A stretch of 64,000 nucleotides of DNA from a virus. Each line of letters starts with the position of its first letter. Position 1 is the stretch's first letter. The translations under genes were made by a program, and so were the position numbers. The DNA is taken from positions 208,394 through 272,393 of IMG/VR virus record IMGVR_UViG_3300024308_000016, one strand, 5' to 3'. The notes beneath the pieces are model-generated. The model was given only the letters and a program-made list of their open reading frames with translations. It was not told the origin of the DNA and did no database searches. Below, in pieces: positions 28,477 to 61,429 of the stretch.

Positions 28477-28532
28477 AGTGCGAACCCTTTCTTTTATTAT
28501 GCGGACCAAAAAACACTCAAAGGATCACAGCC

Positions 28533-33500: not shown

Positions 33501-35265
33501 TGACAACTCCGTCAAGCAAGCCGAGGACATCAATCCCATCCAGGCGCTGAAAGGCTCGGAAGCCATCACCTATGTGGGAGAAGGTGGCCGCTCCAAGGAG
33601 TCGATGAACAAGGCATCCCGCGCTCTGCACACCTCCAACCTGGGCGTGGTGTCGGTCGATGCTTCCGTAGACTCTTCGGACGTGGGTATCAACATCTTTA
33701 CCTCCGCCAACCCTGGCTTCAACTCCGTGCGTGGAATGAGCAAGAAGGGTCGTGAGATGGGACCCGCCAACCTCCTGGGCACCAGCGCGATGCTGGCACC
33801 CTTTGCGATCAATGACGATCAAACAGGTCCGCACTACTGGAGACGGTATTGTGTATCTCCCTCAATTGCGAGAACCCCCTGAGAGCTCCACTACCACTGC
33901 TAGCCGCGAGGCGAAGCGAAGGTTCTAACAAAGCTGGAGATTGGGAAACCCGCAGCCAAGCCTCTCTAGTCAGAGGAAGGTTCAACGACTATGGCAGTTT
34001 GTCAGCCATAGGGCCGAAGTGGCCCGAAACAGGGAGCATCTCTTAATCTAGAGATGAAGATATAGTCTCGACATCTGGGGAAAACCCAGAGCTGCTCTTA
34101 TACTAGAGCGGGGCAAGCGTAACGAACTTGCCTGAAGGTATCGCCAAAACGTGTCGCATTTATCTCCATCCAGCAGGCCCACACCGTGGCCACCACTGGC
34201 TACCACGCACCCGTGGTGCGTACTGGCTACGAGTCCGTGATCGGACAGCGTACTGGTGAGATGTTCGCTTCGGCTGCTCGGATGGACGGCAAGGTGATCT
34301 CGGTATCGGACTCCGGCATCTTGGTGGAGTACGCAGACGGTGAACAAAAGGGCTACACCTTGGGCACGATGTACGGACGTGCGGAAGGCTCCACCTATCC
34401 ACACAACCTCATCACTGAGATGAAGCCCGGTCAGAAGTTCAAGAAAGGCGAGTACATCTCGTACAACACCAACTTCTTTGAACCCGACCCGATCTTGCCA
34501 GGCTCCGTGGTCTACAAGGGTTCCATGCTTACGCGTGTGGCTCTGATCGAATCCTCCAACACCCATGAGGACTCCTCGACTATCAGTGAAGAACTGTCCA
34601 AGTCGATGACCACCACCACCGCCAAGGTCAAGAAGTACGCCGTGAACTTCCGGCAAAACCTGCTCAACATGGTCAAGATCGGCCAGCAGGTCAACCCTGA
34701 AGACATCATCATGACCATCGAAGATGAGATCACTGCGATGGACGACAGCTTCGGAGATGCGTCGATGGAGATCCTGGCCGCCCGTGCCAAGAACTCTCCG
34801 ACGTCCGGCTACCGTGGCCGAGTCTCTGACATCGATGTGATCTACCACGGCGACAAATCCGATATGTCCGCATCTTTGAAAGCCTTGGCTGATCGCTCCG
34901 ATCGCCGAAGAGCCGACAAGGCCAAGGCCACGGGTCGACCTGCTGTGACCGGAGCTGTTGACTCCGACTACTCGCACGACGGTGCACCGCTGATGCTCAA
35001 CAAAGCGATCATCATCGTCTACATCACCGTCTCTGAAGGAGCGGGCGTTGGTGACAAGTTGGTATTCTCCAACCAGCTCAAGAGCGTGATCGGTGAGGTC
35101 ATGCCCTACAAGCTCACCACCAAGTCTGGCCTTCCCGTGCATGCCAAGTTCGGTGCCAAGAGCTTCGCTGCCCGTATCGTGAACTCTATGATCTCGATCG
35201 GATTGCGGGGCGCAGTCCTCGACCGGCTGACTGATGTCGCCGTCGAAGCTTACGAAGGAAAGTAA
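30571..35265 (+). CDS. Virion RNA polymerase beta subunit, large N-terminal part, interrupted by a group I intron (phiKZ gp178-like)
   Basis: Exons are 30571-33819 and 34144-35265, giving 1456 residues. The splice yields APFAINDD|PKRVAFISIQQ, matching the RpoB segment [24 protein letters not shown]. Exon 2 continues RTGYESVIGQ, RMDGKVISVSDSGILVEY and later GDKLVFSNQLKSVIGEVMPY, which replaces the RpoB GDKMAGRHGNKGV stretch. The gene ends after EAYEGK; the final beta region is encoded at 12268-12927. Residues ~290-520 are an acidic, Lys/Asp-rich insertion. Unspliced, the frame stops at 33882 with 20 foreign residues after INDD. It would transcribe early genes after injection together with beta-prime. 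Confidence 0.88.
33820..34143 (+). ncRNA. Group I self-splicing intron 2, in RNAP beta
   Basis: It is 324 nt without an ORF. Core elements: P AATTGCGAGAAC (33864-33875), Q AAACCCGCAGCCAAG (33946-33960), R GGTTCAACGACTA (33979-33991), S AAGATATAGTCTCG (34057-34070); R and S form P7 (CGACTA / TAGTC). Exon 1 ends GACGAT and the intron ends in G. A P1 can be drawn between exon 33810-33819 and 33842-33851, with the splice-site U33819 facing G33842 as a U-G wobble and two purine mismatches. The sequence is clearly related to intron 1 (shared CCTGAGAGC after P, and AGCCAAGCCTCT around Q). Confidence 0.92.
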
Positions 35266-47419: not shown

Positions 47420-49120
47420 ATGGACAATATCAACAACCCCAACTTGGAGTTTATCCCAGCTCCGGTCAAGGGCACCGATGGTGCCAATCCGCTGTACAAC
47501 GAAAACGGTCCCTGGAGGTGGTGGAGTATCGACGATATCTACACCGGCTTTGTGGGTGCCAAGAAGTTTGTACCCAAGGTCCTGGACTACGTGATCTCCC
47601 CGGAGAACTACATGGTCTGGATTGTGCGGGCCATTGACCCTGTCAAACTGATCCCCACGCTCGATGAGATCCGCCCCTACGGCATGTTCAACCCCATCGA
47701 GGAATCGGACGTGTTGTTTGGTGTGGGTCCAGGCACTCAGGCGCAACTGCTTCGGGTGTACCTCAACCGCTCCAGCTATCCGTATCGCCTCACGGTGGAT
47801 ACCCATTGCTTCGTGGGTGGTGACAACAACGCCTACGCTATCCTGTACAAGGGTGGCGTGCCGTCCATGGGCGGGCAGCCTGTGTCCCAGATGTACGATG
47901 CCTCCGGGCAGTTCATCACGGACCGCGTGCCGCTGGAAGCCATCAAGCTCGACAGCCACGAGGTGCAAAACCTCAAGGTGGTCAGCGAGTGCTTCACAAC
48001 GTTGGATCTGGCCGACGGTACTCCGATCACCGTGGTGTTTTACTCGCTCGATGGCGTGCCCCAGAGCAAGTCCATGCTGCTGCTGGAGAACACCACCTAC
48101 ATCCGGGGTGTGGACATCAAGCGACGCTTCATCACCAACATCACCATGAGCTCGCCATGGATCAGTCCAGCTGATCCCAACACGCTGCGCTTCCCGCTGA
48201 ACATCCCTGCCAATGCACTGGGACTGATGGGTACCGTACATTATTCGGACGGCGACTCCATGACGCTGCCCGTCGACGGCAACAAGTTCAGCATCCTGGG
48301 TCTGGACGGCTACCTGTCGACCATCATCGGTGAGGAGCAAGACTTGGTGCTGCGCTATGCGCTTGGCAAAGACGAAATCAACTACGCAGGCCAAGGCCAG
48401 TGGAGCCAAGACTTCGTCACCCAAGGCTACAAGTTCGTCACCGAGATGATGGAAGCCGGCTATACGGTCAAGTTGTTCCCGTATCCCTTCTGGGATCAGC
48501 AGCTGCAGGGCTACCGGCTGCGCTGGTGGCTGCTGGACCTGGAGCGCACAGCGTTCAAGGAAGTCACCAACTTGGTGGAGTGGTCGGCTCAATCCGGAGC
48601 CTGGGATCCCCAGAACTACGGCATGATCCAGCGCTTTCAGATCAACCTGAACCTGCGCAAGGTCTCCCAGGCGTACAAAGCCATGATCCACACCCAGCAG
48701 TGCGAGATCACTTTGTTCTCGCCCCCCTGGGAGCAACCCACTCCGTGGCTGGTGGCCAACCAACCCATGCCCAACATGCCGGCATATGGCCGTGAGGCCA
48801 AGGCCAAGATCGTGATGCTCAACAAGGTCAACCTGTCCGCTGGACGCGCCAACCTTGACGAGTGGATCGAGGACATCTACGGCACTACGTACCCGCTGAT
48901 CGATCGGCGTTCGGAAGTACGGGCCCCAAGGCCCAACAACTTCGCTCTGTCCATCGATGACGGCCAGACCTGGACCGAGTATCCGGTGCAGCGCTGGAAT
49001 GAGGACATCCTGTTCACGAGACCCCTGTCTCCGAACCGCAACATCCTCATCCGCTTCTTCCGACGCACCTCGCAGCAGGGCACTTTGACCCTGAGTATTG
49101 CGGCTATGACCCTGGAATAA
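47420..49120 (+). CDS. Virion structural protein candidate (566 aa)
   Basis: It starts at ATG 47420, with TAGGATAG just upstream. The sequence is aromatic- and Pro-rich with alternating strands; the last ~55 residues (FALSIDDGQTWTEYPVQRW, then a strand LTLSIAAMTLE) look like an Ig-like or jelly-roll terminal domain often found at tail-fibre or baseplate tips. No family is recognised. A perfect 18-bp terminator hairpin follows. Confidence 0.7.
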   Translation: MDNINNPNLEFIPAPVKGTDGANPLYNENGPWRWWSIDDIYTGFVGAKKFVPKVLDYVISPENYMVWIVRAIDPVKLIPTLDEIRPYGMFNPIEESDVLFGVGPGTQAQLLRVYLNRSSYPYRLTVDTHCFVGGDNNAYAILYKGGVPSMGGQPVSQMYDASGQFITDRVPLEAIKLDSHEVQNLKVVSECFTTLDLADGTPITVVFYSLDGVPQSKSMLLLENTTYIRGVDIKRRFITNITMSSPWISPADPNTLRFPLNIPANALGLMGTVHYSDGDSMTLPVDGNKFSILGLDGYLSTIIGEEQDLVLRYALGKDEINYAGQGQWSQDFVTQGYKFVTEMMEAGYTVKLFPYPFWDQQLQGYRLRWWLLDLERTAFKEVTNLVEWSAQSGAWDPQNYGMIQRFQINLNLRKVSQAYKAMIHTQQCEITLFSPPWEQPTPWLVANQPMPNMPAYGREAKAKIVMLNKVNLSAGRANLDEWIEDIYGTTYPLIDRRSEVRAPRPNNFALSIDDGQTWTEYPVQRWNEDILFTRPLSPNRNILIRFFRRTSQQGTLTLSIAAMTLE

Positions 49121-49134
49121 TCCAGAAACCCTAC

Positions 49135-49174
49135 GTGTATACCAGCGCTCCCGCGAGGGAGCGCTGGTATACAC
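49135..49174 (+). terminator. Very strong perfect hairpin
   Basis: An 18-bp perfect stem (GTGTATACCAGCGCTCCC with its complement) is closed by a GCGA tetraloop and followed by CCCCTTTGTAAGCTTTTTT. It closes the structural operon. Confidence 0.8.
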
Positions 49175-49189
49175 CCCTTTGTAAGCTTT

Positions 49190-49216
49190 TTTATCCACTT
49201 AGACCTTACTTGAGGA
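49190..49216 (+). promoter_or_regulatory. Copy D of repeated promoter-like motif
   Basis: This copy contains CACTTAGACCTTACTTGAGGA, 16 nt after the 18-bp hairpin and 32 nt before ATG 49249. It probably drives the accessory block. Confidence 0.58.
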
Positions 49217-49248
49217 ATAGCCCTCTATTTTTCTATTTGGAGGATGAA

Positions 49249-49983
49249 ATGCCCAAACATCACGGATCCAAGCAGCAGCCCAAAACTGCTCAATCTCTCG
49301 ACGAGCTCGCTGCGCTGATGAAAGCCGCTGATGAAGCGGCCCAGGAAATCGGTGATCAAACCGAAACCACTGCTCGTGTGGAGCAGACTTACGTCCCAGC
49401 GCAAACTCATACCAAGGTCTCGCTCAACGGCGAGATGCTGTATACCTCGACCCGTCTGAACTATGACGGCTCCGAGCAAACGGATCAAGAGATCGAATCT
49501 CGATCGGTCCAAGCCAAAAGCCTGGGCGAGAAGTTCTTTGACAAGAACAATCCGTTCGATTCGTTCATCAAGGCAGTTCCGAAGCTGGAGCTGCCCGATG
49601 GCGAAGAGCCCGCACCACTGGCAGCGCTGCAGCAAATGCGCGACTGTGGCAAGGAGCTGACATTTGCTCGGCTGTCCACTCCCTGGGGCGCCACTAGTTT
49701 GGTGGACCGCGCCATGGTCGAGTCTCTCAAGCCTGGCGAGGTAGTATGGAGCTACCTGAAGGACGGCATCTCCGTCATCTACGTTCTCAAGGACAAGGCC
49801 ACTGACTCCAAAGACTACGCTGTGGTCCTGAAGGTGTACAAGACCAACTCCATGCAGTACGACACCTGGGTGTTCGGTGATCTTCGCCATATCACGGCGA
49901 TGAAAAACGACCACCTGCGCTACTACGAAAGCTTGCCCGAGCTCGATCCCAGCCTGTGGCAAAAGCTCAAGAACCTGTTCTAA
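49249..49983 (+). CDS. Hypothetical protein, 244 aa
   Basis: A strong SD TTGGAGGATG precedes ATG 49249; the upstream extension runs through a terminator and is rejected. The N-terminal ~60 residues are charged and probably helical or disordered. The C-terminal ~150 form a globular domain with strands VVWSYLKDGISVIYVLKD and YAVVLKVYKTNSMQY. No family recognised. It is the first gene after promoter-like copy D, before the ART-like gene. Confidence 0.7.
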   Translation: MPKHHGSKQQPKTAQSLDELAALMKAADEAAQEIGDQTETTARVEQTYVPAQTHTKVSLNGEMLYTSTRLNYDGSEQTDQEIESRSVQAKSLGEKFFDKNNPFDSFIKAVPKLELPDGEEPAPLAALQQMRDCGKELTFARLSTPWGATSLVDRAMVESLKPGEVVWSYLKDGISVIYVLKDKATDSKDYAVVLKVYKTNSMQYDTWVFGDLRHITAMKNDHLRYYESLPELDPSLWQKLKNLF

Positions 49984-50048
49984 AAGCAGGCCGCAGATCG
50001 ATAAAGTGGTGAATCCTATCAATCTGCCTATTTCCCATAAGGAGACGT

Positions 50049-50558
50049 ATGTCCATCGCTGAACTGTTGGCCGCCAATGACGAGCAGGCCAAACAAACCA
50101 TGAACCTGTACCATGGCTCGGGCTTCAAGCAAACGGAGCTCAAGCCCGGCTTTGCCCATACAGGGGAGCTGGTCAACTGGGACAGGTACGAGTCCAATGA
50201 CTATTTGTACGCAAGCAGTCACAAAAACTCAGCGATCCTACTGGGCATCGTCTCCGCATGGGAAAAGAAGTTCCCTATTTCCCGAACCAAGATCGACGAG
50301 CCGGGTCGCCAGATCCGCTTGGAGTTCGAGGACAAGGTGCCCAGTCCGGACGATCTCAATCGGGTCGATGCCTGGCTGTATACCATCGCTCGTGATGACG
50401 CAGCCGACGGCTGGGTCCACAACCACAACCCTTTCAACAACATCAAGACGGAGTACAAGACCAAAAGTACCATCAAGAAAAACATCCTCAGCATCGAGAA
50501 GATCAATATCGAGTCCACCTTAAAAGGATTCGTGATCCATTCCAGCGTCGCAAAGTAA
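50049..50558 (+). CDS. Putative ADP-ribosyltransferase-fold protein (Arr-like)
   Basis: The product has 169 residues. Residues ~20-66 read LYHGSGFKQTELKPGF, then a gap, then DYLYASSHKNSAILLGI. This mirrors the start of rifampin ADP-ribosyltransferases (Arr: FYHGT...KPGF...YVYLTATLEAAIWGAEL) and of other ART-fold enzymes with a YHGT/S motif that binds NAD. Arr enzymes use a His-Tyr-Asp set; the candidate His is in LYHGS and the candidate Tyr in DYLYA. Phages use ARTs to modify host polymerase, ribosomal proteins or RNA. The match is by eye and covers only the N-terminal half; the C-terminal half is unassigned. Confidence 0.5.
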   Translation: MSIAELLAANDEQAKQTMNLYHGSGFKQTELKPGFAHTGELVNWDRYESNDYLYASSHKNSAILLGIVSAWEKKFPISRTKIDEPGRQIRLEFEDKVPSPDDLNRVDAWLYTIARDDAADGWVHNHNPFNNIKTEYKTKSTIKKNILSIEKINIESTLKGFVIHSSVAK

Positions 50559-50597
50559 ACCCCGGTTCCCCTTCTCTTTATATAGAAAGCATTTGAA

Positions 50598-52049
50598 ATG
50601 ACAGCATCGAACAACGCAGCCGACAACAATAACAACGCATCCGCTGGCGGTGGCAGCCTGAGCGATTTCCGATCCTCCATGCTCAGCAAGCTGGGTGTGA
50701 CGGCTGCTCCGAAGTACGAACGTCGTGGCCCCAACCAGCATGAAATGCTGGACGACACGATCCGTGAGCTCAATGGCGAATTTCGTGCCAAGATGGCCCG
50801 CGTACTGGAAGACTCCGGCGTCTTCACCCGCGTCACCTATCCCGAGGGGCTCAATGCCCGTGAAGTGGCCGCTGATGTCAGCTTCGAATCCCGCATCGCC
50901 TCCATCAAGGGCTTCCAATCGGTGCGCGACTTCATGATCTTCTACCCCCGTATCCAGGGCGACATCGAAGACATCATCAAGTGCAACGCCATGCTCGATG
51001 GCCTGAGCCCGGTGATCGGCCGCACCAATGGCCTGAGCAAGTCCATGACGCTCAAGGACCAGACCTCCATCAACGAGCTGGTGCTCGATCTGCATGAAGC
51101 TGGCTTCTACGGCGTGCACGACAGCGACGACGTGATGGCGTTCGATGAAAAGAACATCCCCACGTTCCGTGCCGGCATCTCGTTCACTCGCAAGGGCAAC
51201 CTGGGCACTCAGTCCATGGAAGTGTCCGTGCGCTGGGCGGCCAACAACGAGCTGGTGGAAAAGTTCATCCGCATCGTCCGCAACCACGTGGCCGTCTCCG
51301 GTGCCATTGACGCTGGCGTTTACGACACCATCATCGGCATCACCGGCGGCAAGATGGACATCAAGAGCGAGTCCCTGCAGGACTCCCAGGAAGCGGTGCC
51401 TGCGTTCTACCCCTGGATGAACGAGACGGACATCGCCCAGTACTTCCTGGACTTCCTGAACTCTTCGGCCAACGTGCTGATCCTGTACGGCCCTCCCGGC
51501 ACCGGCAAGACCACCATGATCCGTACGGCCGTCAAGCGCCTGGGCCTTCGCGCTCTGGGCACTGCTGATCAGACCCTGATGAGCATGCCTGGCTTCGTGC
51601 AGATCTGCGGCACCCACATGTCGGGCGGCGGCGAAAACGGCAAGTACGATGTGCTGGTGGCCGAGGACTCGGAAATCCTCACCAAGAAGCGCCTCAACGA
51701 AGAAGGCCAGGTGGTCAACCCGGTGATGGCATCGCTGCTCAATGCGGTCGACGGCGTCTCCAAGGAAACCAGCTTCAAGCTGGTGATCACCACCAACCTT
51801 CCCAACCTGCTGGACATGGACACGGCACTACTGCGCCCTGGCCGCTGCTTCGACGTGATGGAATTCGGCCGCCTGACGGCTGAGCAAGGCATGACCATCC
51901 GCGCCATGCTGGGCAAGGAAAACAAGCGCCTGGCAAGCCCGAACGGCTACCTGCTGGCCGAGATCCTGAACATGGACACCACCAAGAGCGAACTGATCGA
52001 CGGTCACGCCATCGTCTCGCCCCGCTTCCCGCTGCCCAAGAAGAAGTAA
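50598..52049 (+). CDS. BCS1-like AAA+ ATPase, tandem copy 1
   Basis: The product has 483 residues. Walker A is GPPGTGKTT near residue 298. Walker B reads DVLVAEDSE, with Glu-Asp in place of the usual Asp-Glu, as in BCS1-type AAA proteins. The sensor/arginine-finger region is TALLRPGRCFDVMEFG, and it ends DGHAIVSPRFPLPKKK. An N-terminal ~280-residue domain is shared with the next two genes and is probably a substrate or oligomerisation domain. Role unknown: likely a remodelling or assembly ATPase. Codon use is highly biased, suggesting strong expression. Confidence 0.82.
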   Translation: MTASNNAADNNNNASAGGGSLSDFRSSMLSKLGVTAAPKYERRGPNQHEMLDDTIRELNGEFRAKMARVLEDSGVFTRVTYPEGLNAREVAADVSFESRIASIKGFQSVRDFMIFYPRIQGDIEDIIKCNAMLDGLSPVIGRTNGLSKSMTLKDQTSINELVLDLHEAGFYGVHDSDDVMAFDEKNIPTFRAGISFTRKGNLGTQSMEVSVRWAANNELVEKFIRIVRNHVAVSGAIDAGVYDTIIGITGGKMDIKSESLQDSQEAVPAFYPWMNETDIAQYFLDFLNSSANVLILYGPPGTGKTTMIRTAVKRLGLRALGTADQTLMSMPGFVQICGTHMSGGGENGKYDVLVAEDSEILTKKRLNEEGQVVNPVMASLLNAVDGVSKETSFKLVITTNLPNLLDMDTALLRPGRCFDVMEFGRLTAEQGMTIRAMLGKENKRLASPNGYLLAEILNMDTTKSELIDGHAIVSPRFPLPKKK

Positions 52050-52066
52050 GTTCTTCTATCCCTCCA

Positions 52067-52103
52067 CTTCCTGCGGCCCTTCGGGGCTGCGGGAAGGTCT
52101 TTT
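52067..52103 (+). terminator. Hairpin terminator between AAA+ genes 1 and 2
   Basis: A stem from CTTCC...GCCC to GGGC...GGAAG with a TTCG loop (one or two wobbles) is followed by GTCTTTTG. Confidence 0.65.
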
Positions 52104-52143
52104 GTCAGTTTCCCTTTTAAATAGTAAGCATTAGGAGCTACCC

Positions 52144-53805
52144 ATGTCCGAGAACAACAACCCCGAATCCACCAACCCCGCGTCCGAGCAACCCGCTCCC
52201 ATCATCGCCACTCCCGTCTACGAACAAACCGAAGTGACCATGGGCGCGGACGGCGAAGGCGCCACTGAATCTGCTGGTGAAGAAGCTGGTGAAGCGGCTG
52301 AAGCTGTCGCCTCAGCCTCTCCCTCTGTCGAGATGCTGAATCTTGAGCTTCCTGACCTCACCACCAAGAGTTTCGTGAAACGCATGATGGGCAACTCCAT
52401 GGTCGGCTTGATGTCGTCCTCCATGCTGGAGGCGTTGCGGTCCCAGTCGCCGGTGGCCGCTCGCGTGGCCTCCCGCAACCGTGTCAAGTCGGTGCGCCAG
52501 GCATTCGAGGAAGCCGTGGAAACGGTCGACAAGGTGCACTACTGCCGCGCCCGCTTCAAGCACACCATGGACTACATGGCGATCACGAACCCGAGTGGGA
52601 TCATGGATCTGGGCGAGTTCTACGACAAGAAGGGCAAGTACCAAGAGCGCCTGATGCTCGCCCGTGCTCGGGAAGTGGGCTTTGCCTCCATCCATCGCGC
52701 CATCTCCTTCACTGAGAGCTTCGGTATGCTGGAGAAGATCTGCGACCAGATGTCGATGTACGATGGCGCGGGTAAGACGTTCGATCGTCGCCTGGGCATG
52801 AACCAGATCCACCTAAAGCCCAATGCTCGTATCGAGATCGTGCAAGCGTTCATCGACGAAGGCTGGGTCTTTGTGGGTGGTGACACCATCTGCAAGTTTG
52901 ACGAAAAGAACCGTCCCATCGGCGGCATCAACTTCGACTGGCATGGCGGCTCTGAAGGTGGCGAATGCTACTCCAACACCCCGACGGTCTGGGGTATCGG
53001 TGAAAACCACATGCCTCGCCTGATCGAGCTGTTCCGTGAACGCCTGGCAGAGCGCACTCTGGGCACGGCCAAGCTGACCACCATCCAGGCCATCAACCCG
53101 ATGAGCGGTCTGGAGACAGTGGATGACGATCTGTCCGACGTGCGTCTGGCCGACTCCACGTTCTTCCCCTGGATGAACGGCACGCCGATCACCGAGTACT
53201 TCATGGACTTCCTGACCAGCGACGCCAACGTCCTGATCCTGTACGGCCCTCCGGGCACGGCAAAGTCGACCATGATCCGTACCGCGGTCAAGCAGCTGGG
53301 TCTGCGTGCCCTGGGCACGTCCAACCAAAAGCTGATCGGAAACCCGCAGTTCCTGACTGCATGCGGCTCTCGCATGTCCGGCCGTGGCGGCGACGCTCCG
53401 TACGACGTGCTGATCGCTGAAGACGCGGAAATCCTGGTGCGCAGCCGCGACCTGGGCAACCCGCTGATGTCCACGCTGCTGGACGTCACCAACGGCATGA
53501 GCGCCAAGCACTCGTTCAAGTTGATCCTGACCATGAACTCGGACAACCTCAACGACGTGGACACGGCGCTGCTGCGCCCTGGCCGGTGCTTCGACATCAT
53601 GCACTTCGGCTACCTGGACGCCAAGCAAGCAGCCAACGTGCGCACCGCACTGAAGCTGCCTGAGGTGCCGATCAAGGAAGGCAAGTACGTGCTGGCTGAA
53701 GTCGTCAACATGGGCATCATCAAGACCGACCTGATCGAAGGCAAGGCCATCGTCAAGCCGCGTTTCCCGCTGCCCAACGATCGCGTGATCGATCGTTCGC
53801 TGTAA
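52144..53805 (+). CDS. BCS1-like AAA+ ATPase, tandem copy 2
   Basis: The product has 553 residues. TAGGAGCTACCC precedes ATG 52144. An acidic Ala/Glu-rich N-terminal tail (residues ~1-60) is unique to this copy. Walker A is GPPGTAKST near 367, Walker B DVLIAEDAE, and the arginine region TALLRPGRCFDIMHFG. The pre-ATPase domain shares FIDEGWVFVGGDTICKFDEK with FVKRGWRIMNHDHLVLLDHR of copy 3. The three paralogues may form one mixed oligomer. Confidence 0.82.
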   Translation: MSENNNPESTNPASEQPAPIIATPVYEQTEVTMGADGEGATESAGEEAGEAAEAVASASPSVEMLNLELPDLTTKSFVKRMMGNSMVGLMSSSMLEALRSQSPVAARVASRNRVKSVRQAFEEAVETVDKVHYCRARFKHTMDYMAITNPSGIMDLGEFYDKKGKYQERLMLARAREVGFASIHRAISFTESFGMLEKICDQMSMYDGAGKTFDRRLGMNQIHLKPNARIEIVQAFIDEGWVFVGGDTICKFDEKNRPIGGINFDWHGGSEGGECYSNTPTVWGIGENHMPRLIELFRERLAERTLGTAKLTTIQAINPMSGLETVDDDLSDVRLADSTFFPWMNGTPITEYFMDFLTSDANVLILYGPPGTAKSTMIRTAVKQLGLRALGTSNQKLIGNPQFLTACGSRMSGRGGDAPYDVLIAEDAEILVRSRDLGNPLMSTLLDVTNGMSAKHSFKLILTMNSDNLNDVDTALLRPGRCFDIMHFGYLDAKQAANVRTALKLPEVPIKEGKYVLAEVVNMGIIKTDLIEGKAIVKPRFPLPNDRVIDRSL

Positions 53806-53812
53806 AGCGCTA

Positions 53813-53841
53813 CTCCACGGGCCCTTTACGGGCCCGTGGAG
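53813..53841 (+). terminator. Hairpin terminator between AAA+ genes 2 and 3
   Basis: A perfect 12-bp stem CTCCACGGGCCC / GGGCCCGTGGAG with a TTTAC loop. Confidence 0.7.
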
Positions 53842-53896
53842 GTGTTTGCATTTTCAATAATCAGTATTCTCTCCCTTCTCTATTAGAAAGCGTCAC

Positions 53897-55309
53897 ATGT
53901 CCGCAGTTCCTACCCCTGAAAACTTCGCAACTACCCTGCTGAGCGCCGCCGCTACTGCCATCCGCCAGCGCCAAAGCGCCGCCGGCAGCCGCATCCTGAA
54001 CCGCTCCAAGCCCAGGACGGTGGTCGAACGCTTCGACTACACCGTTGATGTGGCCATGAAGAAGGCCGGTGCCTTCGAGGACATCCCCCAGCCTCCCCAC
54101 CACGACCGCGGCGACTCCGTCACGTCGGTGGTCCTGAACCGCGATTTCTACTGCGGCGAAGGCCGCCTGCTGATGGACTCCTTCATCAGCCAGGTGATCG
54201 CCGCTGATGGCTTCCGTAGCTCTCTGGACCTCATGGTCATGGACCTGGGCTACGGCGGCATGCTGGACATCGCTCGCGCCAACATGCAGACCTACTACGA
54301 CCAGCTGCCCGTGAAGGGGGGCTTCTGTGCCGGCAACATGTACGTCAAGGAAGGCGGTGAGCGCGCTCTGTTTGAAGCCTTCGTCAAGCGTGGCTGGCGC
54401 ATCATGAACCATGATCACCTGGTGCTGCTGGATCATCGCAACCTCCCGATCGCTGGCGTGGACCTGGACCTGTGCCGTGACCGTCACCACGACGTGTACA
54501 TGGACGACATCCAGTTCTTCGGTCTGAGCACCGCTGTGCTCGACGAGATCACGGGCATCCTGCGCTCGGTGCTGGCGGACCGCATGATGGGCAACGCCTC
54601 CATGACCACGATCCAGTCCATCGACAAGCGCGGCGAGATGCAGACGTCCACGGATGACATGTCCGAAGGCCTGACGGCTACGAGCGCCTTCTATCCCCAG
54701 ATGGAGGGCGCCTCGATCCGTGAGTACTTCATGGACTTCTTCAACTCCAAGGCGTCGGTGCTGGTCCTGTACGGCCCTCCCGGCACTGCTAAGTCGACCA
54801 TGATTCGCACAGCCATCATCGAGCTGGGCCTGCGTGCACTGGGCACTTCCAACCCCAGCGTGTACGCCAGTCCCAATTTCATCTCGGTGTGCGGCTCCCG
54901 TATGGCGGGCGCCAACGGTGAGACGCCCTTCGACGTGCTGATCACGGAAGATGCGGAAGCTCTGGTGGCTCCTCGCTCGGCAGGCAACGCCAAGATGGCT
55001 GAGCTGCTCGATGCCACCGACGGCATCGGCACTCAGCACAAGTTCAAGATGATCATCACTTTGAACTCGCGCGATCTGTCGAACGTGGACACAGCACTGC
55101 TGCGCCCTGGCCGTTGCTTCGACATCATGGAGTTCGGCCATCTCACGGCCGAAGAAGCCATGGTGGTGCGGCGCACTCTGGATCTGCCCGAGATCGCCAT
55201 CAAGCCCGGCAAGTACCTGCTGGCCGAGGTGGTGAACATGGACGACACCAAGAGCGAGACCATCGACGGCCATGCCATCGTGACTCCGCGCTTCAAGCTC
55301 AAGAAGTAA
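53897..55309 (+). CDS. BCS1-like AAA+ ATPase, tandem copy 3
   Basis: The product has 470 residues. Walker A is GPPGTAKST near 292, Walker B DVLITEDAE, then NVDTALLRPGRCFDIMEFG and a C-terminal DGHAIVTPRFKLKK nearly identical to that of copy 1. The three genes arose by duplication, with copies 2 and 3 sharing the GTAKST P-loop. AGAAAGCGTC precedes the ATG. Confidence 0.82.
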   Translation: MSAVPTPENFATTLLSAAATAIRQRQSAAGSRILNRSKPRTVVERFDYTVDVAMKKAGAFEDIPQPPHHDRGDSVTSVVLNRDFYCGEGRLLMDSFISQVIAADGFRSSLDLMVMDLGYGGMLDIARANMQTYYDQLPVKGGFCAGNMYVKEGGERALFEAFVKRGWRIMNHDHLVLLDHRNLPIAGVDLDLCRDRHHDVYMDDIQFFGLSTAVLDEITGILRSVLADRMMGNASMTTIQSIDKRGEMQTSTDDMSEGLTATSAFYPQMEGASIREYFMDFFNSKASVLVLYGPPGTAKSTMIRTAIIELGLRALGTSNPSVYASPNFISVCGSRMAGANGETPFDVLITEDAEALVAPRSAGNAKMAELLDATDGIGTQHKFKMIITLNSRDLSNVDTALLRPGRCFDIMEFGHLTAEEAMVVRRTLDLPEIAIKPGKYLLAEVVNMDDTKSETIDGHAIVTPRFKLKK

Positions 55310-55332
55310 GCCGCGTCCCGTGGTAAAACAGT

Positions 55333-55370
55333 AAGAGGAGCCGGCATCTGCTGGCTCCTCTTATTTTTTT
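55333..55370 (+). terminator. Intrinsic terminator
   Basis: Stem AAGAGGAGCC / GGCTCCTCTT is followed by ATTTTTTT. It closes the AAA+ triplet. Confidence 0.85.
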
Positions 55371-55393
55371 GTCTCTATTGAAAGGATATCATC

Positions 55394-56176
55394 GTGAACA
55401 AGAACCAAGTAACCGCTATCGGGCGTTTCATCCAAGGCAGACTTCAGTTTTCGGAACTGCTCAACACAGCAGCTCGATTCATAGAAGCACAGAGCTGGAT
55501 CAACCAGTCCGGCGAGCTGGACAAGGGTATTGGCAAGCGCCGCACCAGCATGGCTGTCGCTGACTTGTTGAAAGCCACGCATCAGCCCCTGAATGTACAG
55601 GAGGTGCTGATCAACTATTACGCTGACCTGATAGTCACCTCCATCAACCTGGACATCGCGGCTAAGGAGCTGCAAATCACTGTCATCTTGTCTGACACCT
55701 CTGTCAGTGCCAAGGTGTCCCAGCAATACGTGTTGACCGTCACCGCGGGTACTTCGGCTGCTCAGCCCGATCCCGTTGCAATGGATCCCGCGGACTGGGC
55801 GCAGCATCCAGCCAATCGCGCAGATGCCCCGAAGAAGTCGCCAGCTCCCATTGCTCCTCCCGAAGCCGCTAAAAAGGCAGTCCAGGCCAAGGCACAGGTT
55901 ACGCTCCCTGTGGAGCAGCCTCCCCAGTTCCTGTATGCCGCCAAGGACAAGGTGCGCCAGTTGAGCACCCTGAATATGGCGCGTGTGCAGCCCTTCATCG
56001 AAGCAGCGAACTTTCCGATCGGCTACAAAGTGCATCGTGTCGTCTCCATCGATGGCCCGCTCAATGAAGGCATCGCTCGCATCGACGTGATCTCCACGTG
56101 GACAGGTCCCGGAAAAGGCCACCATTCCGAGATCCTTACTCCGCTGTACCTGAGCCAGCACCGCTTCTCCAAGTAA
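55394..56176 (+). CDS. Hypothetical protein with Pro/Ala-rich linker (260 aa)
   Basis: It starts at GTG 55394, with GAAAGGATATC upstream. The N-terminal domain (1-120) is helical then beta. A disordered Ala/Pro linker spans about 125-175. The C-terminal ~75 residues are compact and beta-like. No family was recognised. It begins 24 nt after the intrinsic terminator, so it may have its own promoter or rely on read-through. Confidence 0.7.
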   Translation: MNKNQVTAIGRFIQGRLQFSELLNTAARFIEAQSWINQSGELDKGIGKRRTSMAVADLLKATHQPLNVQEVLINYYADLIVTSINLDIAAKELQITVILSDTSVSAKVSQQYVLTVTAGTSAAQPDPVAMDPADWAQHPANRADAPKKSPAPIAPPEAAKKAVQAKAQVTLPVEQPPQFLYAAKDKVRQLSTLNMARVQPFIEAANFPIGYKVHRVVSIDGPLNEGIARIDVISTWTGPGKGHHSEILTPLYLSQHRFSK

Positions 56177-56200
56177 CTGCTCCTTCTAAGGACCCCTAAA

Positions 56201-56554
56201 ATGAAAGCTACCGCATCCGCTTACTGCCGCATCGGCGTCTCCATCAACACCCTGCAAGAACTCACTGAAGCACTGACGGCTATTTCACAAGGGCGTAGTG
56301 ACCTGGAGATGGCCCGAGCTGTGGCCCATGCCGAGACGCTCGTGTATCGCCGCCTGGCTGATGTGCGCAAGGCGGGTGCGCGTATCATGCCGTTTCAGTC
56401 CCTGATCCCCAAAGAAGTGGTCTTCAGCATCGTGGAACAGGGGCCCAATTCGTTGCATTTCAAGATGGACAAGCACATGCGTACTTCCAGCAAGGGACAA
56501 GAGTCCCAGGAATCGATGTACAGCTTCGACATCATCATTACCCATCCCAACTAA
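56201..56554 (+). CDS. Hypothetical protein, 117 aa
   Basis: CTAAGGACCCC precedes ATG 56201. The protein is small and basic: an N-terminal helix-rich half (LQELTEALTAISQGRSDLEM) and a C-terminal beta half. It ends 14 nt before the next gene. No family recognised; operon position supports a real gene. Confidence 0.68.
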   Translation: MKATASAYCRIGVSINTLQELTEALTAISQGRSDLEMARAVAHAETLVYRRLADVRKAGARIMPFQSLIPKEVVFSIVEQGPNSLHFKMDKHMRTSSKGQESQESMYSFDIIITHPN

Positions 56555-56568
56555 AGAAAGCTTTCACC

Positions 56569-57639
56569 ATGGCTACTGCCAAGAAAACCGCCACCAAGAC
56601 TGAGATAGTCAACTCAGCACTCAAGCGTGCCTCGGTCCGCAAAGCGACAGCCTCCAAGGAACTCAAAGCACATCTGGACAAGGCCGACGAGCTGGCAGTT
56701 CCCTCCACAGTACCTGTCATGCAAGACGCCAAAGCCGTGGCTGACGAGGCTTCGCTCGTGACCAGCCTGAACCTGCTGCTCGCCGGCAAAGCCACCCGGC
56801 GCCTCAAAGATGAGGCCCGCCTGATGTGGCAGTTGCGCGAAGTGCTCAAGAGCACCCAGACTCAGCTGCAAGGCACACTGATCAATGGCGGCGTCTCGGA
56901 CGCTACAGGTGCCCTGACCATGGAGGCGTATCGCAACGTCATGGAACTGCTGGGCTTGAAAGAGCTGGCCAAGGTCCCAAATCCGGGCCCTGAAGTGCGT
57001 TCGACTCGCTCCATGCGCCGCGCTTACACGCGTGGTCTGGTGCAAGTCCTGCAAAAGGGTATCAATGCCATCGACGAGTCGGTGCGCACCATCGGTGCCT
57101 ACAAGCAAGCTGGCGTCAAGACCCGCAAGAATCGGGCAGTTTCGGTGGACATCCCCCGCACTCCCATCGTGGAGACGCTCACGGTGCAGCGCATGCGTGG
57201 GCGCTCGGTCACGCATCACAACAGCCATCTGTTCGTCACCGCGGGCTACATCTGCCTGGCGGTCGATCACATCGCCAAGATCGTGATGGAGTCCAAGTCT
57301 CTTAACGAGATGACCAAGGCTGTACGTGACCGCACTGCCAGCTCCCGCCAGCGGCTGCTGCCCTTCCTGGCCAAGGAAGTGCCGGTCACCATCACCGAGG
57401 ACAACATCTTCATCCAGTCGGCCACTGGCTTCATCGACGGCCACTACGAAGTCGAAGTGCTGGTGCGCTATCCCCTGGGCCTGGGCGCTGAAGCCATCCA
57501 GGGCCTCAAACTGAAGGTGTACCGCGACAAGTCCATCGGTGCCTATGACCGCGTGATGCAGCACACCAGTGGCGTTACCAACATGGGTCGTGAAGACATC
57601 ACAGCTTTGGTGCAGCACGCTCATCGCCAACTGGGTTGA
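56569..57639 (+). CDS. Hypothetical basic protein, 356 aa
   Basis: AAAGAAAGC precedes ATG 56569. The N-terminal ~30 residues are Lys/Ala/Thr-rich, as in nucleic-acid-binding tails. Residues ~60-190 are helical. The C-terminal ~150 contain beta segments VPVTITEDNIFIQS and HYEVEVLVRYPLGLG. The overall net charge is strongly positive. No family recognised. Codon use resembles the AAA+ genes. Confidence 0.7.
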   Translation: MATAKKTATKTEIVNSALKRASVRKATASKELKAHLDKADELAVPSTVPVMQDAKAVADEASLVTSLNLLLAGKATRRLKDEARLMWQLREVLKSTQTQLQGTLINGGVSDATGALTMEAYRNVMELLGLKELAKVPNPGPEVRSTRSMRRAYTRGLVQVLQKGINAIDESVRTIGAYKQAGVKTRKNRAVSVDIPRTPIVETLTVQRMRGRSVTHHNSHLFVTAGYICLAVDHIAKIVMESKSLNEMTKAVRDRTASSRQRLLPFLAKEVPVTITEDNIFIQSATGFIDGHYEVEVLVRYPLGLGAEAIQGLKLKVYRDKSIGAYDRVMQHTSGVTNMGREDITALVQHAHRQLG

Positions 57640-57650
57640 TAGCTCCCACC

Positions 57651-57692
57651 CCCGGCGCCTGCGGGCGTCGGGAGTGCGGTGCTTTCTTTTTG
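57651..57692 (+). terminator. Intrinsic terminator
   Basis: Stem CCCGGCGCC / GGCGTCGGG (one G-U pair) is followed by AGTGCGGTGCTTTCTTTTT. Confidence 0.75.
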
Positions 57693-57709
57693 TCCCGTAT
57701 CTAGAAACT

Positions 57710-57736
57710 TTCAGTCACGTATACTCTACCTGAGGC
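57710..57736 (+). promoter_or_regulatory. Copy E of repeated promoter-like motif
   Basis: This copy contains TCACGTATACTCTACCTGAGG, 18 nt after a terminator T tract and 46 nt before ATG 57783. The terminator-motif-gene spacing is the same pattern as copies B and D. Confidence 0.6.
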
Positions 57737-57782
57737 ATAACGCTTCAATATCTTTTAACCTTCAAATAGAAAGACCTCAACC

Positions 57783-58190
57783 ATGTACATCAAAGACGGC
57801 TACCTGATCCAGGGCTCCAACCGTTACAAGATCCTCAAGTCGTTTGAGACGACTGTGAAGCTGTTCTCCGACAAGGGTAAGCTCAAGCACGGTGAAAAGA
57901 AGTTCGCCTACGACGAGTTCCGCTTGTCGGGCTACGTAGTGGACGCCGAGGACAACCCCAAGACGCTGTATTACCGCATCGTGGGCACCGACATGATGAA
58001 CGCCTCGGCGATTGTCAAGGGCATCTTGGTCAATGGCTCCACCTTGCAGCCCGAGCACTACCCGATGGATGCGATCCATACCTACAGCCTGGAATCTACG
58101 CTCGATCCGTCCCAGCATGCGCTGGAGGACTGCGTCAAGCACATCAAGCGCGATCTGATCGCAGCTCGTGCCTCCATGGAACTGAACTGA
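57783..58190 (+). CDS. Hypothetical protein, 135 aa
   Basis: TAGAAAGACC precedes ATG 57783, about 46 nt after promoter-like copy E. The protein is soluble alpha/beta with a Lys-rich N-terminal half (FSDKGKLKHGEKKFAYDEF). No family was recognised. It is followed after 12 nt by the DHH-like gene, so the two are likely co-expressed. Confidence 0.68.
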   Translation: MYIKDGYLIQGSNRYKILKSFETTVKLFSDKGKLKHGEKKFAYDEFRLSGYVVDAEDNPKTLYYRIVGTDMMNASAIVKGILVNGSTLQPEHYPMDAIHTYSLESTLDPSQHALEDCVKHIKRDLIAARASMELN

Positions 58191-58202
58191 GCAGGAGCAT
58201 GT

Positions 58203-59231
58203 ATGACTGAACTTGTCAAATATGCCGGTCAGCGCGCACTGACGGACCTGGAGAGCTTTCTGGGCTCCCACATCACGGACGGTGAGGACATCCTCATCAA
58301 GGGCGCCAAGGATGTGTACGTCCTGTATACGGTCGACTCTCTGGACTCTCTGGTGGCTGCGGCTATCCTCCAGCGCATGCACTGGAAGCATGCCAAGTCG
58401 CTGGCAACGGCGGGCGTAACAACCCCCGATGCGCACTTCAACTTGCATATCGAGTCGATCGTCAACGCCTCCATCCCGGAGGATGCGCCTTTCGTGGTGT
58501 GGCTGGGCATGCAGCCTACTCCCGCGGTGTTCAAGACCGGACGGCCGGGCTTGTTCCAGTTCGGTGACCCCAAGATCCCCAAGGGCGTCAAAAACATCAC
58601 CGTGACTGCAAACCCTCAGAGCTATCCGGCCAATAGACCTTTCACCGAAGAAGTGGAGGCGATCTGGCAGGAGTGCTATGGAGGCGACCAGCCAGCTCCG
58701 GCGTATGGGCTCATCATCGATCTGTTCTCCAAGCTGGCCGAGCAGTTGAACTACTCAGCCAGCAACCCGATGATCTGCTACCCGAACCTGGCAGCCTACC
58801 TGATCGATGTGCAAACTGCGGTCAACCAGTTCGATATGCGGCACACCATGGACTTGCGCTCTCCCAAGGAGCAGTCCGCAGCTGTGGTCAAGGCGTTTGC
58901 TCTGGGCGTGGCGGCCTTGAAGACGCTCAAGCAAGCCGGCGGCATGATCGACATGACCGACGCTGACAAGGCCTACCGGATGGTGCTGAGCAATGTGCGC
59001 GCTCAGTTGGCCAGAAACGGCCACAGGGCTGAGTCCGCTCAGCGAGGCCCGGTGCTGCATGCTTGGTTCACCCACATCTCGGAGTTCTACTGGGTCGCTC
59101 GCCGTCAGGTGCAGCATTCCCACAAGTTCTACGTGAACGTGACCAAGTGCCGTACAGGTGACTTCATCTACACCAACGTGCCCTCGGGGCATACGGTGAA
59201 CATCAGCCAGCAGACCATCAGGTCGTCATAA
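58203..59231 (+). CDS. Possible degenerate DHH-type phosphoesterase fold protein
   Basis: The product has 342 residues. GCAGGAGCATGT precedes ATG 58203. Residues ~38-57, VYVLYTVDSLDSLVAAAIL, resemble the first strand and loop of DHH phosphoesterases (YHADCLDGFTAAAI), but the metal-binding His and the C-L-D-G loop are altered (T-V-D-S-L-D-S). A later FVVWLGMQPTP occupies the place of the second acidic strand but lacks the aspartate, and no DHH triad is seen. If related, it has probably lost catalysis. The alternative is a fully unrelated unknown. Confidence 0.45.
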   Translation: MTELVKYAGQRALTDLESFLGSHITDGEDILIKGAKDVYVLYTVDSLDSLVAAAILQRMHWKHAKSLATAGVTTPDAHFNLHIESIVNASIPEDAPFVVWLGMQPTPAVFKTGRPGLFQFGDPKIPKGVKNITVTANPQSYPANRPFTEEVEAIWQECYGGDQPAPAYGLIIDLFSKLAEQLNYSASNPMICYPNLAAYLIDVQTAVNQFDMRHTMDLRSPKEQSAAVVKAFALGVAALKTLKQAGGMIDMTDADKAYRMVLSNVRAQLARNGHRAESAQRGPVLHAWFTHISEFYWVARRQVQHSHKFYVNVTKCRTGDFIYTNVPSGHTVNISQQTIRSS

Positions 59232-59293: not shown

Positions 59294-61429
59294 CTATCGA
59301 CGAGCCACCACACGAGTGCGGTTGGCGCGTATCTGGGAGATGAGATCATCCGCAGACAGCACTTGGCGGTCCTCGTCAGTCATCTGAGCTTCCAGATACC
59401 GGAGCTTTTGCTCGTAGCGCTGGGCGATGTAGGGATCTCGCTCGTCTTGCAGACGATCGATGATCATGCTGACTTCGTCGCGCAGGCGCTGCTGCTTGAC
59501 GCGGTCGTACATCTTCTGCGTCGTTTCTTCCTCCTCGATCACCTCATTGTCACTGAGCATCTCCCGGGGGTTGATACCATAGTGCGAGACGTTGCGAGCG
59601 TTGGTGAGGAACCAGTAGCTGAGCAGCCACGATACCACCAAGTCGTCCTTGCCGCCTTGTGGGTGGTCAATACGTCCGCCGCGCGTGACCAACGCCAGGA
59701 TCTGGGAGATCAGTGGCATGTCGTAGACCTTGTCCCCGGTGTACTTGACAGCGCTCATGAAGACGCTGCCATACAGGCCATCCCGGGAGAAGATGCCGGA
59801 GCCTGCAGTCTTGAAGCCAAAGAAGCGCCTGTATTGATTGACAAACTCCTTGGGAACGCGGCCCTGGGTGACGATGGTCTTGTAGCGCTCCTTGAACTCC
59901 AAGTGCTCGTGCACAATGAGGTTGAAGATGCGCTTGAAGGGGTCGACATTGGCACCCACCAGTTCCATAAGCACGTAGTCGATGATCGTCACGCCGTTGA
60001 GCTTGTTCTCAGGGATCCAGGTGATGTTCTCGTACTTCAGGAGCAAGTGAGAGATCCACTTGGCGATCTCGATGGTGTTGGTATCGTTGACATTGGCCGC
60101 TCCGATCACCCGACCGTCCTTGACGTCCCGCAGCACGAGCGTGGAGTCGTCTCGACCGATGGCTTCAGAAGCGTCAAACGCCATGATGGTCTTGTTCTCG
60201 GCCATATAGCGCTCCAGGTTCTCCCGGGGCACGAACCAGCGCATGAGGAAAGGCCAGGGACGGCAGATCTCATCGAAGCTGACCATCTGGGAGTTGCGGA
60301 TACGCGCGGTGTCCTTGGTCGACAAGGGTGAGCTCTGGGAGCCATCCGTCCATACATTACCGAAGTCGCGATCTGCGGCATCTCCCGTGGACTTGGCAGC
60401 TATCATGGACTTCTTGAGCCAGTCATCCTTCAAGCCCAGTTGGCGGTGGTTGAACGAGCAGTGCACTTCAGGCACGCCTTCAGGGGAGGCGGCCATCACC
60501 ACATCGTACAGGTCAGAGCGGTTGACTGCGTCAAAGAACGCTTCCGACCACACAGCAGCTTCGTTGATGAGCTTGTAGATAAAGGCGCCGTCTTCGTCGT
60601 CCTTCTTGCCAGCGGTAGTGGCGATCACTGTGCCGTAGAAGATGCCGTCATTGTGGGCCTGGGTACGTGCGGCGTTACCGCCTGCGAGCATCGCGGGCAG
60701 CGTCACTGACACATAGCGAATGAAGGCAGCTTCGTCGATGAAGTACGTGGGTGCAGTCAAACCACGACCCACGTTGTTGGCCGCTTTGTCGGACGTTGCG
60801 GGCACCAAGCCCACGATCCGATTACCGGTGATCCCGAAGTGGATCTGTTCGGTATTGTTGATGTCCCCGCGCTTGTGGCCTGATAGGTAAAACGGTAGAT
60901 ACGCGTTGATCTCCCGTATCCGCTCCATGTTCTGCTTGCGAAGGTTGTCGTCCTTGGTTAGCAAGTTGATGAGCTTGTTATTGTAATGCAGGTTGTTCAA
61001 ATACTCACCCAAATGGTCCATGGACAGGGACTTGCCGGTCTGACGGATCTGGATGAGGTACACCGTGATAGCGTTGAAGAACAACCAGTACATACTCATG
61101 TTGCCGCGATTGGCACGAAAGTACGCTGGATTGTCCCGTGTGTTGCCTGGTGCTCTGGCTACTTCCCGGAAGTAGTAAAACGGATTGACCGCGCATTCCA
61201 TGCGAATCATCACCATCTGCTCAGGCGTTAGGTTCTCCACATCGTGGGGATCTACGTCCTTGAGAAGGGGGTTGTGCAGCTGTAGGCACCATTTATAGTT
61301 GGAGATTCCCATCTTCTTGAGCAAGTTGGCATACTTGATGAAGGAGATGTTCTTGGTCTCGTTGTGGACGACGGCATGCGGGTTCTTGGCCCAGTCTTCC
61401 TCAAACAAGATGACGCTAGGGGCTGTCAT
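59294..61429 (-). CDS. terL: Terminase large subunit (TerL, phiKZ gp25-like)
   Basis: The product has 711 residues. The ATPase half has Walker A IQIRQTGKS (~127-134) and Walker B PTYFIDEAAF (Asp-Glu at 232-233), followed by IATTAGKKDDEDG as coupling motif region. The RNase H-like nuclease half has TIMAFDASEAIGRDDSTLVL (first Asp) and HPQGGKDDLVVSWLLSYW (last Asp). It packages DNA into the prohead and cuts the concatemer. Length fits jumbo-phage TerL. No small terminase is recognised next to it. Confidence 0.93.
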   Translation of the reverse strand: MTAPSVILFEEDWAKNPHAVVHNETKNISFIKYANLLKKMGISNYKWCLQLHNPLLKDVDPHDVENLTPEQMVMIRMECAVNPFYYFREVARAPGNTRDNPAYFRANRGNMSMYWLFFNAITVYLIQIRQTGKSLSMDHLGEYLNNLHYNNKLINLLTKDDNLRKQNMERIREINAYLPFYLSGHKRGDINNTEQIHFGITGNRIVGLVPATSDKAANNVGRGLTAPTYFIDEAAFIRYVSVTLPAMLAGGNAARTQAHNDGIFYGTVIATTAGKKDDEDGAFIYKLINEAAVWSEAFFDAVNRSDLYDVVMAASPEGVPEVHCSFNHRQLGLKDDWLKKSMIAAKSTGDAADRDFGNVWTDGSQSSPLSTKDTARIRNSQMVSFDEICRPWPFLMRWFVPRENLERYMAENKTIMAFDASEAIGRDDSTLVLRDVKDGRVIGAANVNDTNTIEIAKWISHLLLKYENITWIPENKLNGVTIIDYVLMELVGANVDPFKRIFNLIVHEHLEFKERYKTIVTQGRVPKEFVNQYRRFFGFKTAGSGIFSRDGLYGSVFMSAVKYTGDKVYDMPLISQILALVTRGGRIDHPQGGKDDLVVSWLLSYWFLTNARNVSHYGINPREMLSDNEVIEEEETTQKMYDRVKQQRLRDEVSMIIDRLQDERDPYIAQRYEQKLRYLEAQMTDEDRQVLSADDLISQIRANRTRVVARR

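Follow-up and report, generated by a model that had tools for sequence, protein, structure and literature searches.

Three tandem BCS1-like AAA+ ATPase paralogues of a phiKZ-type jumbo phage as candidate soluble ring chaperones

Why should a phage keep three complete copies of one AAA+ ATPase side by side? The question is raised by a 64,000-nt stretch of DNA (the window) covering positions 208394-272393, the terminal part of a 272,393-base IMG/VR virus record. A preliminary description had placed three full-length tandem paralogues of 483, 553 and 470 aa there; their coordinates, strands and lengths proved exact, BLASTP confirmed their kinship, and a search of the whole record showed them to be its sole members of the family. 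The features of the locus, numbered by window position, are listed below.

47420-49120: gp26-like virion gene, left neighbour of the island
49135..59231, + strand: island of ~10 kb that contains the trio, flanked by the gp26-like virion gene and the terminase
50049..50558, + strand: gene immediately upstream of the trio, phrog_13483, 169 aa, function unassigned
50598..52049, + strand: paralogue 1 (P0001, 483 aa), Walker A GPPGTGKT, Walker B VAED (VAEDSE), outgroup to the other two
52067..52096, + strand: terminator-like hairpin of 13 pairs behind paralogue 1, with UUCG loop and U-rich tail, z -4.5 vs shuffles
52144..53805, + strand: paralogue 2 (P0002, 553 aa), Walker A GPPGTAKS, Walker B IAED (IAEDAE), longest low-complexity N-tail
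about 53813..53841, + strand: hairpin behind paralogue 2, with a core stem of 12 pairs and a weak U tail, z -5.3 vs shuffles
53897..55309, + strand: paralogue 3 (P0003, 470 aa), Walker A GPPGTAKS, Walker B ITED (ITEDAE), sister of paralogue 2
55330..55365, + strand: strong hairpin of 16 pairs behind paralogue 3, with a long U tail, resembling an intrinsic terminator, z -7.3 vs shuffles
59294-61429, - strand: terminase, right neighbour of the island

Judged from its gene content, the source is a phiKZ-type jumbo phage, of the giant, nucleus-forming type. This assignment is based on the RNA polymerase subunits, prohead protease, phiKZ gp26-28-like virion proteins and terminase encoded in the window, together with the major head protein, internal head protein and chimallin encoded elsewhere in the record. 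By terminase, the closest described phage was Burkholderia phage FLC9 (44% identity), and a scan of viral contigs with the terminase returned no match. The gene for chimallin, the nuclear-shell protein, lies at C1:34115-36073 of the record (profile E 1.3e-38; phrog_4795, nuclear shell protein, 1.4e-44) and was detected by a five-phage profile, a single phiKZ chimallin sequence used as query having yielded nothing convincing. The same gene (L119:14115-16073) is divergent, and is the record's third-ranking ORF by codon bias.

Pairwise comparison of the paralogues by BLASTP gave 42% identity over 391 columns for P0001 and P0002 (2e-86), 49% over 323 columns for P0002 and P0003 (8e-109) and 38% over 393 columns for P0001 and P0003 (8e-78). 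Chance or misassembly was considered as the origin of the trio and rejected, the copies being 38-49% identical and each of them open and codon-biased. Each protein consists of a low-complexity N-tail, a family-specific alpha/beta N-domain and a single AAA core, and these parts have diverged very unequally: identity within the trio is 53-61% in the AAA core, 19-26% in the N-domains and 16-19% in the N-tails, which thus differ as first described, while the C-termini, formerly called near-identical, measure 45-62%. All three paralogues contain the Walker A lysine, the E-D Walker B, the sensor-1 Asn and both RPGR arginines, all of which are invariant in 41 homologues, in agreement with the earlier statement that Walker A, a Glu-Asp-ordered Walker B and the arginine region are kept. 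The E-D order itself was found in 44/44 aligned family members, and the family-invariant LAE motif is likewise present in all three paralogues.

The lone departure from the family-invariant catalytic residues is a P-loop common to two of the copies, which the preliminary description did not mention. The family otherwise has GPPGTGK[ST]; the residue preceding the P-loop lysine is glycine in paralogue 1, as in 41/41 relatives, and alanine in paralogues 2 and 3, giving GPPGTAKS. Since loops of the GPPGxAKS kind are found in active MCM and MoxR ATPases, the change from Gly to Ala suggests tuning, not death. Inactivity of some of the copies was also considered and is unsupported, the catalytic residues being kept in all three.

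The family to which these proteins belong was approached by profile and by predicted structure. All three match Pfam AAA (PF00004) and PHROG phrog_14322, the latter over the AAA core (2.8e-45, 3.0e-44 and 1.5e-43). In AlphaFold models of P0001 and P0003 (mean pLDDT 71.5 and 73.0) the AAA core scored mostly 85-96 and the confidence of the N-domain was moderate. The first PDB match of both models by Foldseek was Bcs1 (8t7u; 1.1e-11 and 1.7e-10), followed by other Bcs1 states and Bacillus subtilis YjoB (7w42), about two orders ahead of Cdc48/p97; the alignments to Bcs1 span ~390 columns, with low TM-scores (0.27-0.31) and a large rmsd. A search of BFVD gave a Ralstonia RP12 record as its top match. 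Against the PDB, a profile of seven sequences (A1) placed BCS1 first (6sh3, 4.2e-14), and one of 44 sequences (A3) placed AFG2 slightly ahead of BCS1, so that filing by sequence is not decisive.

The earlier label of BCS1-like therefore holds for the AAA module, by profile A1 and by fold and with AFG2 in a near-tie, and does not extend to the rest of the protein. Bcs1, the mitochondrial Rieske translocase, carries a membrane helix at its N-terminus and a middle domain specific to BCS1, whereas in the trio no transmembrane helix was detected (highest 19-residue hydropathy mean 1.0-1.3, with none in the N-tail) and BCS1_N gave no Pfam match at E 0.1; for these two reasons the paralogues are not regarded as true BCS1. 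YjoB, a bacterial AAA+ protein that ranked near the top of the structural comparison, is cellular rather than of phage origin and only 14-17% identical to the trio, with an unproven relation between the N-domains. AFG2, Cdc48 and p97 share the classical AAA core and nearly equal profile scores, but they have two AAA domains, a D-E Walker B and aromatic pore loops, in contrast to the one AAA domain and E-D order of the trio, in whose alignment no aromatic YVG-type pore-loop motif was seen between Walker A and B. The lid after the AAA core is very short. The trio would work most like the soluble BCS1/YjoB proteins, without being filed as BCS1.

BCS1-like ATPases had been thought unusual in phages, which is untrue of jumbo phages: orthologues have been reported in all three of their major groups (Iyer et al. 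2021, PMC7824862), and we found relatives in many jumbo phages, including GAP32, CBB, ME3 and PA5oct from other groups. In a tree of 53 rows the three proteins form one clade (100/99), with paralogues 2 and 3 as a sister pair inside it (100/95), and the trio falls, as one family with phiKZ gp208, in a 12-row clade (99/94). Sister to the trio (97/90) is the ATPase that stands alone as the third copy in Klebsiella jumbo phages; the two have in common an insertion ahead of Walker B and, at the C-terminus, a K..(D/E)G..(I/V)V stretch. These Klebsiella phages (KpLz, KpYy and Kp24; Siatvirus, Maaswegvirus) also carry three family members per genome; however, their tandem pair groups with phiKZ gp208 and Phabio, apart from the trio, and the third copy, the closest kin of the trio, lies at a distance, indicating that tandem duplication took place independently at least twice.

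Nearly all of the ~36 records searched whole have one strong match, the exceptions being the three Klebsiella phages with three matches and PA7 with a second, short and weaker one; these counts are lower bounds, because many records are fragments. The same array was not found in phages (megablast), in viral contigs or in genome contigs, where two remote matches only were obtained. Elsewhere, the neighbours of the family member are a helicase, RNA ligase, RtcB or small unknown genes. The gp208 family (phrog_14322) resembles the trio in sequence, in its single AAA core and E-D Walker B and in a tendency to codon bias, and differs from it in being usually single-copy and in its shorter N-domain; the present phage stands apart with three members in tandem, the insertion before Walker B, the K..(D/E)G tail at the C-terminus and a changed P-loop in two copies. 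The trio is thus a real expansion of a known jumbo-phage family and not a product of chance; what is new is the tandem triplication with diverged N-domains and P-loop.

Codon usage is highly biased in all three genes, as first noted. Their effective codon numbers are 32.3 (P0001), 34.0 (P0002) and 32.1 (P0003), against a genome median of 44.5, and paralogues 1, 2 and 3 rank 2, 4 and 1 among 33 window genes and 6, 11 and 5 of 154 ORFs in the whole record, the latter ranking being approximate since its ORFs (at least 200 aa) were picked mechanically. Similarly biased genes encode the internal head protein, the major head protein, chimallin and a head-decoration/tail-fibre-like protein. In phiKZ, gp208 ranks 3/43 among the sampled genes, one place under chimallin, and the Klebsiella third copy ranks 3/24. 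The high bias of the gp208-type ATPase in phiKZ is not shared by the Klebsiella tandem pair (L004:9790-10890, L006:8329-11295). As a proxy only, codon bias points to abundant proteins.

The reading that we favour, with a probability of about 0.55, is that the trio codes for AAA+ chaperones of the BCS1/YjoB type that are soluble, catalytically competent, abundantly produced and diversified by triplication. The proteins would assemble into wide rings, in which the ATP cycle would open and close a vestibule built by the N-domains, and folded protein clients would be moved or remodelled, rather than unfolded chains threaded. Against this reading stand the near-tie with AFG2, the low TM-scores and large rmsd to Bcs1, the moderate confidence of the N-domain, the missing membrane segment and the very short lid. 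The ancestor would have been a single-copy gene akin to the lone third ATPase of the Klebsiella phages, and would have duplicated twice in tandem, the motor being kept and the N-domains presumably diverging for different clients or for a mixed ring. Membrane-proximal translocation of folded proteins has been proposed for the jumbo-phage BCS1 orthologues (Iyer et al. 2021, PMC7824862), and the lack of a membrane segment in the trio favours a soluble chaperone version of that proposal.

Retention of the triplication with apparently intact active sites, on which tree and catalytic residues agree, had been taken to suggest a hetero-oligomer or separate substrates, and conservation of the motor with divergence of the N-domains fits both alike. 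A single hetero-oligomeric ring, in which paralogue 1 (GPPGTGKT) and paralogues 2 and 3 (GPPGTAKS) would differ in their share of the ATPase work in the manner of Rpt1-6 or MCM2-7, is a less likely alternative that overlaps with the soluble chaperone reading rather than opposing it. It is consistent with the adjacency and similar codon bias of the genes, with the AAA core, the source of subunit contacts, as the best conserved part, and with a P-loop change present in two copies and in 0/41 relatives. The solved Bcs1 rings, however, are homo-heptamers (PMC11143374, PMC12219900), no mixing of paralogues is possible in one-copy relatives, and the other catalytic residues are kept in all three copies. 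The genes are also separated by hairpins that permit separate expression. Unlikely, too, is a BCS1-type ring turned hetero-oligomeric by triplication of a homo-oligomeric motor, in which two GPPGTAKS subunits and three N-domains would make an asymmetric folded-protein machine at the levels of a structural protein.

The hairpin reported behind every paralogue was recovered in each case as a strong structure, and with every gene followed by its own hairpin, the single operon proposed for the trio is unsupported. A search for a promoter motif shared upstream of the three genes gave one exact site only, and an Rfam search of the trio region gave no match.

The position of the trio bears on a possible role in the virion. 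In phiKZ and FLC9 the terminase adjoins the gp26-type virion gene, and here ~10 kb with the trio separates them. Four of the other island genes had no match among 50,697 phage records. The phrog_13483 neighbour has counterparts with 41-46% identity in 65 jumbo phages, mostly of Pseudomonas, and a functional tie to the trio is unsupported; it starts with a YHGS...LYAS pattern that by eye resembles ADP-ribosyltransferase folds, with no profile support. A virion-assembly translocase, loading folded proteins such as the virion RNA polymerase or inner-body proteins into heads, is an unlikely alternative here: Iyer et al. 2021 (PMC7824862) suggested such a role for the BCS1 proteins of jumbo phages, and the trio adjoins virion genes on their strand, beside the terminase, with codon use like that of head genes, yet the phiKZ, Phabio and Klebsiella homologues lie outside head-gene modules, and phiKZ gp208 is not annotated as structural and was dispensable for plaques under knockdown (PMC12571901).

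Published data on gp208, the single-copy member in phiKZ, bear on two further alternatives. In a glycerol gradient it was found in high-molecular-weight fractions (PMC10914614), which could reflect binding to another complex. Antisense knockdown left plaque counts unchanged and weakly lowered ChmA, and gp208 is listed as non-core in Chimalliviridae (PMC12571901 Table 1). Its non-core status, the lack of a plaque effect in a laboratory strain and the no more than weak fall of ChmA would suit an accessory host-takeover or anti-defence function, in which an arms race expanded the family and each copy extracts or remodels a different host target, as would the lineage-specific island and N-domains that are the most strongly diverged of the compared domains. 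This possibility nevertheless seems improbable: genes of this kind do not usually have a codon bias as strong as that of head and shell genes, and no linked anti-defence gene was recognised. PADLOC anti-phage defence profiles gave generic P-loop matches of 20-40 residues and none of full length, by which membership of a defence or anti-defence family was ruled out at the profile level. Among the virion-assembly, translocation and anti-defence machines first envisaged, a chaperone or translocase is the best class, and the virion role is the part that gp208 does not support.

A function at the phage nucleus, in which folded proteins or shell subunits are moved at the chimallin shell, is very improbable. 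The phage does encode chimallin with a similarly extreme codon bias, and the weak fall of ChmA on gp208 knockdown points the same way; against this, jumbo phages from further groups carry the family as well, gp208 is non-core, and no shell interaction was reported in the literature found.

BCS1-like ATPases are widespread among jumbo phages. A tripled gene with intact motors and codon usage like that of capsid and nuclear-shell genes amounts to a natural experiment, in which comparison of the N-domains across the trio should point to clients, and which tests whether Bcs1-type folded-protein translocation machines can turn hetero-oligomeric.

Elsewhere in the window, two group I introns (Rfam RF00028) were identified on the + strand, with no endonuclease ORF of note seen in either. 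That at 33810-34091 (65.2 bits) interrupts an RNA polymerase subunit gene, positions 3-1051 of phrog_3148 being matched in ORF 30571-33882 and positions 1065-1422 in ORF 34186-35265. That at 30043-30331 (58.3 bits) directly follows RNA polymerase ORF 28533-30038, which ends near position 496 of the 539 of its family. On the - strand, 20965-28509 encodes a 2514-aa protein with a tail-fibre family N-terminal part and endolysin/transglycosylase matches near its C-terminus.
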